DNA from: Nothopassalora personata
Lineage: Eukaryota > Ascomycota > Dothideomycetes > Mycosphaerellales > Mycosphaerellaceae
DNA length: 64,000 nt
Assembly: GCA_033816765.1 (NCBI GenBank)
Contig: CM066287.1
Location: 7,688,001-7,752,000, forward strand
Reading direction: 5' to 3'
Positions 19,820-63,529 of the stretch are shown here, piece by piece. Below the pieces are notes generated by a model that did no database searches, was not told where the DNA came from, and saw nothing but the letters and a program-made list of their open reading frames with translations. Positions within the stretch are counted from its first letter, which is position 1; each line of letters begins with the position of its first letter. A program made the translations under genes and the position numbers.

Positions 19820-20310
19820 ATGCTGTTCTTCAGCTTCTTCAAGACTCTGGTCAACCACGAAGTCACCGTCGAGCTCAAGAACGACATTTCAATCCGAGGT
19901 ACATTGAAGAGCGTGGATCAATATTTGAACATCAAGCTGGATGACATTTCGGTAGTGGAGGAGTTGAAATACCCCCATTTGGTGAGTTGGAGACATGGTT
20001 GAAGAGCATGGACCGGAGATCGAGGAGGTGGGGGGCAACCGCGGGAAAAAGAGGCCATGTGTTTAGGCGGGACATGGACTGACGAGATATGCACACAGAG
20101 CTCGGTCAAGAACGTCTTTATTCGAGGCAGCGTGGTGCGATATGTCCATCTGCCTGCTGCGGCGGTAGATACACCGCTGCTGGAAGATGCTACTCGGAGG
20201 GGTATGTCACAAAATCGGTGCTGGGTCACTGCTGGTGCGCTACATCCAAGGAGCTGACACGGGTTAAAGAGGCATCACAAACGGCCGCGAAAGCCAAGCA
20301 GGGAGCTTGA
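19820..20310 (+). CDS. LSM2: U6 snRNA-associated Sm-like protein LSm2
   Basis: Component of the LSm2-8 ring (U6 snRNP, nucleus) and the LSm1-7 ring (mRNA decay, cytoplasm). Three exons (19820-19981, 20099-20201, 20270-20310) encode 101 residues. The start [20 protein letters not shown] is almost invariant in LSm2. The Sm1 motif continues through [20 protein letters not shown], and Sm2 is [14 protein letters not shown] after the first splice. Intron 1 is 117 bp and intron 2 is 68 bp; both have GTGAGT/GTATGT donors. The length fits the family (about 95 residues). Confidence 0.96.
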
Positions 20311-21316: not shown

Positions 21317-21321
21317 AAAAA
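21317..21321 (-). terminator. RNA polymerase III terminator (T5)
   Basis: Five T on the minus strand begin two bases past the tRNA discriminator, with a second T4 run at 21311-21314. This is the standard Pol III stop and argues that the gene is expressed. Confidence 0.8.
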
Positions 21322-21323
21322 GT

Positions 21324-21462
21324 TGACCGACGCAGGGATCGAACTGTGACATTGTTAGGGCGTGCACTTCATAGAATTGCCGTGATGTAATGATGCTTAC
21401 CCTGCAATCTCTTGATACCAGCGAGGTCGTAGTCAAGCGCCTTGCCATTGGGCCAGCCGGCC
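21324..21462 (-). tRNA. tRNA-Arg(ACG) with two introns, one of mRNA type in the T arm
   Basis: Read on the minus strand, removal of two insertions gives a perfect 72-nt cloverleaf. The acceptor GGCCGGC pairs with GTCGGTC (two G-T pairs), and the discriminator is A. The D stem is GCC/GGC with A14, G18-G19 and A21. The anticodon stem is CTTGA/TCAAG with loop CTACGA+A (anticodon ACG), the variable loop is AGATT, and the T stem is GCAGG/CCTGC with loop TTCGATC. The first insertion is the usual 10-nt tRNA intron after position 37 (21417-21426). The second is 57 nt between positions 53 and 54 (21344-21400), with mRNA-intron signals. The A box TGGCCCAATGG matches consensus. The insertion splits the B box, but the intron's last bases leave AGTTCGATCCC. 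A Pol III terminator (TTTTT) starts two bases after the discriminator. CCA is not encoded, as expected. Confidence 0.88.
21344..21400 (-). other. Spliceosomal-type intron inside tRNA-Arg
   Basis: 57 bp beginning GTAAGC and ending ACAG, with the branch-site consensus CCCTAAC about 11 nt before the 3' end. Length, donor, branch site and acceptor all match the mRNA introns of neighbouring genes. Its precise removal restores the T stem and T loop. No bulge-helix-bulge expected by tRNA endonuclease is evident at its borders. The same intron type is known in U6 snRNA genes of some yeasts, another Pol III product. That it is spliced by the spliceosome is inference. Confidence 0.75.
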
Positions 21463-21854: not shown

Positions 21855-22877
21855 TCACAGCCCATCAAACAGTTCTCTCAAATATGGATCCTCGGCCGGA
21901 GTGGGCGTTGGCCGCAATGCTGCAATCGTACTTCCGACAGTACTTCGATTCTTGGCTGCAATCACTGCAAACATGAATACGATCAAACCAATGACCGATG
22001 CCCAGATAATGCCCCAGTTCTTCCGGCGCTTCTTCTGATGCTCGTTCCAGCGATGCTCGTAGGCCTCGATCCGATTTCGAGCGGCTTCCAGACGTTCGTT
22101 GAGCTTCCCGGTCCTGTCTTTCGAGGCCTTGAGTTGACCCACCAGGTCGTTGATCGTCTCCTCCTGGCCGTCGAAGTTGTTGAAGCCGTCCAAGTTCTGC
22201 TTTGTCTCTTGCTCCAGCTTCGTCGTATTTTCCTTGAAGGTCGAGTGCATCCTCTTGCTTTCTTCTGCAAGCTGTTGTAGGCTGGCCACGGTTGAGCGAA
22301 GTATCGACGCCTTCTCCAAGATGCTGTAGTATGTGTCGTCCAGCTGCCTAGTACTGCTCATGGCCACCTCCTCGACATTCTTGAGACGTTCACGAAGGTG
22401 CTCCTCGCGTCGTGCATTCTCCTTGCGTGCTTTGACGACATCCCGTGGCCGCACTGTTCGTCGCGCCGCCCTTCTGGCCTCTTCAGCATTGGTCCCGCTG
22501 ATGCCCTCCTGGCGTTGCTGCTGGTGCTGATTTTGCTGGTGCTGATTTTGCTGGTGCTGAAGATGGCTGCCTCTCCAGCTGAGATCAGGACTCTTCTTGT
22601 CTCGTCGTAGTAAGCTGTCGAAGCTGATGGGGGGTTTCAGATCAATGGCGGACTGGACGATCTCCTTGGCGCTTTCGCGGTGGGAGTGCTCCTTCGAGCT
22701 CGTAAATGCTCTGTGTCGGAGGCTTTTGGAATGCAGACGTTGTTGCAGATGCGACTTCTCATGCTGTTGTTTCTGAGGCGCTGGAGGATCCGTCCGCGAT
22801 CGTGAGGGAGAGAATTGGGTGGGGAGGAGGTCGGTGCGAAGTGCAGGCAGCTGCTTGTGCGACTGACGTTCGTCCAT
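21855..22877 (-). CDS. Coiled-coil protein with C-terminal membrane anchor, unknown function
   Basis: Single-exon ORF of 340 residues from the ATG at 22877. Residues 1-~125 are basic and low-complexity with a His/Gln repeat (HQQNQHQQNQHQQQ). Residues ~135-285 are strongly helical and charged, predicted coiled coil, with a conserved-looking segment VEEVAMSSTRQLDDTYYSIL. A single hydrophobic segment at ~287-308 (NWGIIWASVIGLIVFMFAVI) is followed by a ~32-residue tail. The layout suggests a tail-anchored or nuclear-envelope/ER protein, or a tether like those in trafficking, but I cannot name a family. I believe similar proteins occur in other Pezizomycotina; a homology search would be needed to confirm that. 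Confidence 0.7.
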   Translation of the reverse strand: MDERQSHKQLPALRTDLLPTQFSPSRSRTDPPAPQKQQHEKSHLQQRLHSKSLRHRAFTSSKEHSHRESAKEIVQSAIDLKPPISFDSLLRRDKKSPDLSWRGSHLQHQQNQHQQNQHQQQRQEGISGTNAEEARRAARRTVRPRDVVKARKENARREEHLRERLKNVEEVAMSSTRQLDDTYYSILEKASILRSTVASLQQLAEESKRMHSTFKENTTKLEQETKQNLDGFNNFDGQEETINDLVGQLKASKDRTGKLNERLEAARNRIEAYEHRWNEHQKKRRKNWGIIWASVIGLIVFMFAVIAAKNRSTVGSTIAALRPTPTPAEDPYLRELFDGL

Positions 22878-63403: not shown

Positions 63404-63477
63404 GGCTAGGTAGCTCAGTGGTAGAGCGTAAGCTATTTATACTCTTAAGGTCGTAGGTTCGATTCCTACCCTAGTCG
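63404..63477 (+). tRNA. tRNA-like sequence with abnormal anticodon loop
   Basis: The acceptor GGCTAGG pairs with CCTAGTC, the D arm is GCTC-AGTGGTA-GAGC, and the T arm is GTAGG-TTCGATT-CCTAC, all complete. The A box (TAGCTCAGTGG) and B box (GGTTCGATTCC) match Pol III consensus. The anticodon arm is TAAG...CTTA with a C-T mismatch and a 9-nt loop TATTTATAC, so no anticodon can be assigned. It is probably a tRNA pseudogene or tRNA-derived insertion. It lies between the convergent ends of pol and the antisense gene of element F. Confidence 0.6.
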
Positions 63478-63529
63478 CTCGTTAGCCGTAAGATCGATTG
63501 TCATTAGTTATCTCGGCGGACCCATTTTT

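Follow-up and report, generated by a model that had tools for sequence, protein, structure and literature searches.

Can one tRNA family depend on both of the splicing systems of a eukaryotic nucleus? Spliceosomal splicing and tRNA splicing are regarded as independent, each with substrates of its own, and an interrupted tRNA-Arg(ACG) gene in the fungus Nothopassalora personata raises the question of whether a single transcript could be a substrate for both. The gene lies in the 64,000-nucleotide stretch of DNA analyzed here (the window), and the original prediction had read it as an otherwise flawless tRNA broken by two inserts, one of the tRNA type and one resembling an mRNA intron.

Architecture of the interrupted tRNA-Arg(ACG) gene

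Inserts of 10 and 57 nt, the signals GTAAGC...CCCTAAC...ACAG in the longer one and a T5 run behind the gene had all been predicted, and all are present on the minus strand. The features of this gene, copy A, are as follows.

21324..21462, minus strand: whole interrupted tRNA-Arg(ACG) gene (cmscan RF00005; ARAGORN without the T-arm piece)
21427..21462, minus strand: exon 1, tRNA positions 1-37 (sequence)
21445-21455, minus strand: A box TGGCCCAATGG, inside exon 1 (sequence)
21417..21426, minus strand: 10-nt tRNA-type intron at 37/38 (ARAGORN i(37,10); C32-G pair, 3' side)
21401..21416, minus strand: exon 2, position 38 to G53, its 3' end forming the T-stem strand GCAGG (Rfam alignment, sequence)
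21344..21400, minus strand: 57-nt GT-AG intron of the spliceosome type at 53/54 (splice signals, shuffle test)
21395-21400, minus strand: donor GTAAGC of the T-arm intron (sequence)
21354..21359, minus strand: branch motif CCTAAC of the T-arm intron, with 11 nt after the branch A (motif scan)
21344-21347, minus strand: acceptor ACAG (within CACAG) of the T-arm intron (sequence)
21335..21345, minus strand: B box, AG joined to TTCGATCCC, rebuilt over the 3' splice junction (sequence)
21324..21343, minus strand: exon 3, T loop (position 54) through the discriminator base (Rfam alignment, sequence)
21317..21321, minus strand: T5 run, probable Pol III terminator, beginning 3 nt downstream of the gene (sequence)

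The acceptor stem, paired by eye, reads GGCCGGC/GTCGGTC with two G-U pairs, the anticodon stem CTTGA/TCAAG with the loop CTACGA..A, and the T stem GCAGG/CCTGC with the T loop TTCGATC. The word flawless is justified for these three stems, which are complete, but not for the D stem, one pair of which is unpaired in the Rfam alignment. Rfam RF00005 aligns with copy A from end to end (21462-21324, model positions 1-71) at 26.7 bits against a cut-off of 29. ARAGORN misses the gene as it stands; without the 57-nt piece it reports Arg(acg) and places a 10-nt intron at 37. Single-strand folding of the pre-tRNA was uninformative (z of 0.48).

All tRNA-Arg(ACG) genes found are interrupted at the same position

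The assembly (54.5 Mb in 40 contigs) was searched with copy A as query, with a loose Arg(ACG) pattern (GGCG-N5-CTACGA...AGATTG) and with the joined exons. The gene query and the loose pattern returned the same three tRNA-Arg(ACG)-like loci (three pattern matches; none in the reversed control), and all three carry a GT-AG insert at exactly 53/54, measuring 57 nt in copy A, 74 nt in copy B and 35 nt in copy C. The two further copies are:

C1:3561439-3561594: copy B, with 10 nt at 37/38 and 74 nt at 53/54 (GTAAGC...GACTAAT...CATAG)
C6, 5' part at 4752719-4752786 (L011 1450-1568): copy C, with 10 nt at 37/38 and 35 nt at 53/54 (GTGAGT...ACTGAC...ACCAG)

The joined-exon query gave seven matches, all of them parts of copies A to C or of the tRNA-Gly gene described below, and none spans the 53/54 junction. 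Many intact tRNA-Arg(ACG) genes elsewhere had been named in advance as a result that would speak against the original prediction; no uninterrupted one was found in the assembly by gene query, loose pattern or joined exons, and all three copies are interrupted. It could be argued that a divergent or unassembled uninterrupted gene does the work and that the interrupted genes contribute little. The assembly may have gaps, and our tRNA family search scored 63 of 2063 candidates, so that its list of nuclear tRNAs is partial; the loose pattern and the joined-exon search, however, gave nothing further, and we consider a hidden intact gene very unlikely. A tRNA-Arg with A34 (inosine) decodes CGU, CGC and CGA. 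These codons are in use in five open reading frames of the window (CGT 30, CGC 59 and CGA 46 of 3344), and a tRNA-Arg(ACG) is therefore needed.

Copies A and B differ by a compensatory change in the acceptor stem (G5-C68 to U5-A68), the halves of which flank both introns, as would be expected of a folded product. Beyond the genes and at most 13 adjoining nucleotides, the flanks of copies A, B and C share weak, short matches only (E 0.028 or worse). Rfam scored copy B at 25.1 bits, under the cut-off, and copy C had no listed match. In copy C the D loop is one base longer, the T stem is bulged and the T-run is limited to T4; ARAGORN still does not call this copy after removal of its T-arm insert. 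It may be partly decayed, perhaps a gene on its way to loss, and by its stems it could qualify as a tRNA pseudogene.

A second isotype carries the same kind of insert

A motif search for GTAAG...CTRAY...AGTTCRANNC uncovered an interrupted tRNA gene of another isotype:

C4:945495-945644: tRNA read as Gly(TCC), with 26 nt at 37/38 and 52 nt at 53/54 (GTAAGT...GACTAAC...TGTAG)

Its acceptor stem is GCATCTA...TGGATGC and its T stem TCGGG/CCCGA. The Gly(TCC) identity was assigned by eye; ARAGORN called the gene Asn and set the first intron elsewhere. With both inserts included, it scored 29.7 bits against Rfam, over the cut-off of 29. A genome search with this gene matched only the gene itself, and its MAFFT alignment to the Arg genes did not carry across the two introns. 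Cloverleaf, A box, B box and T-run are complete in copies A and B and in the Gly gene and partial in copy C. The usual marks of a tRNA pseudogene are lacking in the first three, whose stems are intact and for which an intact paralogue was not found. A stretch 5' of the Gly gene (L036 1-1430, C4), TA-rich by eye, resembles a mutated transposon beside a tRNA gene.

Further interrupted genes were sought in five pattern scans of the assembly. The motif search itself gave six matches (seven in the reversed control), of which copy A and the Gly gene are genuine; of the other four, two lie on C17 and two elsewhere, the latter pair being no tRNAs when inspected with their flanks. Scanning for GGTAAG...AGTTCRANNC gave 43 matches (control 61), and among the 30 that were stem-tested only copies A and B and the Gly gene had 5/5 T-stem and 7/7 acceptor pairs. 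The corresponding GGTGAG scan gave 32 matches (control 60), 30 of them stem-tested, and copy C was the only tRNA; its low count of ungapped T-stem pairs (2/5) is due to its bulge. One further match (L095) had 5/5 T-stem pairs including G-U and at best 6/7 acceptor pairs in a free search, and was not taken for a tRNA. Scans built on CTAAC and CTGAC branches gave 22 and 29 matches (control 57 and 54), three of which are the known copy A, Gly gene and copy C; on inspection another four were not tRNAs, and most of the other 44 fell outside the stem test. Because the reversed control exceeded the pattern in all five scans, the number of matches is meaningless and only the stem test counts. Coverage was limited to the donors GTAAG and GTGAG and the branch motifs CTAAC and CTGAC beside a standard T loop, and did not extend to GTATG and GTACG donors or to other tRNA positions, so that the four genes are a lower bound. 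Pattern scans of IMG/VR gave no match in one case and, in another, two that run into coding-like sequence and are not tRNAs; six uninterrupted tRNA-like IMG/VR matches were taken for phage-type tRNAs. A pattern scan of a prokaryote genome collection gave no matches.

The T-arm inserts have the signals of spliceosomal introns

All four T-arm inserts have a GTRNGY donor, a CTRAY branch motif 10-12 nt before the end and a YAG acceptor. They match the fungal intron consensus of a published survey, which has a RCTRAY branch 6-36 nt from the end and a YAG acceptor in the part cited here (PMC5832005); the CCTAAC branch of copy A departs from RCTRAY. When each insert was shuffled 300,000 times, donor, branch and acceptor were kept together 3 times for copy A, twice for copy B, never for copy C and 6 times for the Gly gene. 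The ends and branch motifs are conserved although the interiors and the lengths (57, 74, 35 and 52 nt) differ, and even the inserts of copies A and B are not significantly alike in their interiors (0.105 of 2000 shuffles score as well).

The 57-nt piece had been likened to the introns of neighboring mRNAs, and its donor, branch and acceptor signals do match theirs. We compared four such introns, from LSM2 and from a gene that we take to encode ribulose-phosphate epimerase. Their donors are GTGAGT, GTATGT, GTACGA and GTAAGT, their branch motif is RCTGAC at 11-16 nt and their lengths are 48-117 nt; in the frame that was chosen, one of them has GAG as its last three bases. Group I and group II introns were rejected for the T-arm pieces, which are far too short for those classes. 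The best reading of these signals is that the T-arm inserts are U2-type spliceosomal introns in Pol III tRNA genes, and it is from the signals that we infer splicing. The presence of the insert in all three Arg copies and in a second tRNA species likewise lends support to the dual-splicing interpretation first proposed for copy A.

The same observations bear on whether these are dead tRNA copies, redundant genes broken by insertions. In the passages cited of a review of tRNA introns, an insertion in the D or T arm of a eukaryotic tRNA gene mostly affects a single one among many synonymous copies, and such genes are regarded as pseudogenes (PMC4090602); the state of copy C would suit such an origin. 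Here, in contrast, the insertion is in every copy found and no uninterrupted Arg(ACG) copy turned up; moreover, the stems of copies A and B and of the Gly gene are intact, A and B show a compensatory change, and splice signals have been kept while the insert interiors differ. We regard death of the genes as very unlikely.

The T-arm junctions lack a bulge-helix-bulge

The T-arm piece might instead be an ectopic tRNA-endonuclease intron of the type known from archaea, Cyanidioschyzon and nucleomorphs, with GT-AG ends that are incidental. T-arm examples exist, with excision confirmed in the Guillardia nucleomorph, and many are described without a defined bulge-helix-bulge in the parts of the two sources used here (PMC4090602, PMC3978253). 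Among the T-arm junctions of our four genes no bulge-helix-bulge was found: the central helix has 1/4 pairs in copies A and C and the Gly gene and 0/4 in copy B, and the outer helix 0/4 in copies A, B and C and 2/4 in the Gly gene. This yardstick is soft, since the 37/38 sites themselves reach just 2/4 central pairs in copies A, B and C and 1/4 in the Gly gene, with 5/5 in the outer stem. The missing structure makes a tRNA-endonuclease intron in the T arm unlikely, and the full spliceosomal signals in all four inserts argue against it as well; overall, we give this explanation a very small chance.

The inserts at 37/38 are of a different kind. Those of copies A to C are at the canonical position and have the C32-G pair, like canonical eukaryotic tRNA introns, which do not account for the second insert in the T arm. 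In the Gly gene the position is canonical and the C32-G pair is absent under the placement that was chosen.

An intron at 53/54 restores the B box

The B box of Pol III genes spans tRNA positions 52-62 in the passage cited (PMC3978253), and an insert at 53/54 splits it. A GT-AG intron at this site always puts AG in front of TTCRANNC and thereby restores the core of the box at the junction; each of the four genes indeed shows the core GTTCRANNC re-formed there. The position would thus be tolerated because the obligatory terminal AG of the intron supplies G53 of the B box. That the terminal intron bases rebuild most of the split box was already noted in the original prediction; the remark was right, and it also explains the position. 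The A and B boxes are 110 nt apart in copy A, 127 nt in copy B and 121 nt in the Gly gene. These distances come close to the longest usual in yeast tRNA genes.

Inserts in a Pol III template must be free of T4 runs. None of the T-arm inserts (218 nt in total) contains a run of four T, and neither do the four neighboring mRNA introns; the absence says little, given 218 nt and mRNA introns that are equally free. At least two U6 snRNA genes are present, both intronless (C3:3902167-3902266, 61.4 bits; C6:4370284-4370383, 55.3 bits; 47 of 2821 candidates scored), which argues against a general invasion of Pol III genes.

A proposed maturation pathway

Taken as sequences, the four loci are probably nuclear tRNA genes of the Pol III type, each with two unlike introns, one for the spliceosome and one for the tRNA endonuclease and ligase. 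Pol III would be drawn to the gene by the A box together with the B box re-formed over the 3' splice junction. Removal of the T-arm intron by the U2-type spliceosome would follow inside the nucleus, probably at an early stage, since end processing and export require a folded T arm. Once the T arm had folded, the ends would be processed and the RNA exported, after which tRNA endonuclease and ligase would excise the 37/38 intron. The defects of copy C, the long distance between A and B boxes, and the missing C32-G pair and Asn call of the Gly gene count against this reading.

Since no uninterrupted gene was found, decoding of CGU, CGC and probably CGA would depend on the spliceosome. With moderate confidence, we propose that in this lineage all CGU, CGC and CGA decoding and part of glycine decoding may pass through both the spliceosome and tRNA endonuclease, and that introns may sit at 53/54 of unrelated tRNA genes because their AG rebuilds the promoter. 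If true, translation would be coupled to spliceosome capacity, and a tRNA family that needs both systems would represent a new maturation pathway and a direct link between spliceosome and translation. Such a family would also serve as a naturally occurring test of whether the spliceosome acts on Pol III products besides U6. The four genes suggest a simple rule, namely that an intron is allowed wherever its AG restores the B box, and any fungal genome can serve to test it. ARAGORN recovers none of the four interrupted genes as they stand; tRNA finders can miss such genes, and tRNAs that appear to be missing from other genomes may share this cause.

Relation to known systems

One parallel is the U6 snRNA intron of Schizosaccharomyces pombe, likewise spliceosomal and likewise in an RNA made by Pol III. 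The splicing of S. pombe U6 shows that transcription by Pol III does not bar an RNA from the spliceosome; in the part of the work cited, Lsm2-8 binds mature U6 as well as the intron-bearing form, and 3' processing is placed before splicing (PMC10484740). U6, however, belongs to the spliceosome itself, and reverse splicing near the catalytic site is the proposed origin of its intron, whereas the host here is a tRNA that would also need the tRNA splicing pathway, and the U6 genes found are intronless. Introns of fungal U3 snoRNA genes, as far as the cited part of the survey goes, are also ordinary GT-AG introns at few positions in a structural RNA and are frequent in Pezizomycotina (PMC5832005). 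Unlike the present cases, they have a snoRNA host, no split B box to constrain their position and no second splicing system.

The ectopic introns of Guillardia theta nucleomorph and Cyanidioschyzon tRNA genes share with ours a location in the T or D arm of eukaryotic tRNA genes, and excision has been shown for some (cited passages of PMC4090602 and PMC3978253). The Guillardia introns, however, measure 3-24 nt in these passages and are discussed together with tRNA endonuclease, whereas the T-arm introns here measure 35-74 nt and have full mRNA splice signals. The available text of the review treats nucleomorph genes as the exception to the pseudogene view and contains no occurrence of the string 'spliceosom' (PMC4090602). 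Full-text searching of the PMC open library, which covers neither subscription papers nor preprints, listed nothing that describes a tRNA gene with a spliceosomal intron, judged by titles and the beginnings of abstracts. The parts seen of PMC8216456, PMC4494063 and PMC8450103 hold nothing on spliceosomal introns in tRNA genes.

Genomic surroundings

Copy A sits between an LSM-domain gene and an open frame at 21855-22877. The LSM-domain gene (19820-20310, plus strand; Pfam match on 19820-19987), about 1 kb from copy A, was read as LSM2, a U6-binding protein, and its place beside an interrupted tRNA gene is probably a coincidence. An 898-aa protein of the window is 88% identical to one from Dothistroma septosporum, the next named matches being Lecanosticta, Pseudocercospora and Zymoseptoria at 71-73%; all four genera belong to the Mycosphaerellaceae, and the host is a fungus of that type. 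Two records labeled Quercus suber (P0018, P0051) are close relatives of this window protein, at 62-63% identity, and probably reflect fungal contamination of a plant assembly.

Another tRNA-like sequence lies inside a repeat of the window (63404-63478, plus strand, anticodon TTA); four related loci (L005-L008) have the anticodon CTA. The five copies of this repeat share 1.6-2.1 kb at 90-93% identity, and the window copy is TA-rich and CA-poor, as after repeat-induced point mutation. Repeats derived from tRNAs have been noted in some fungal genomes in the cited part of PMC8450103.
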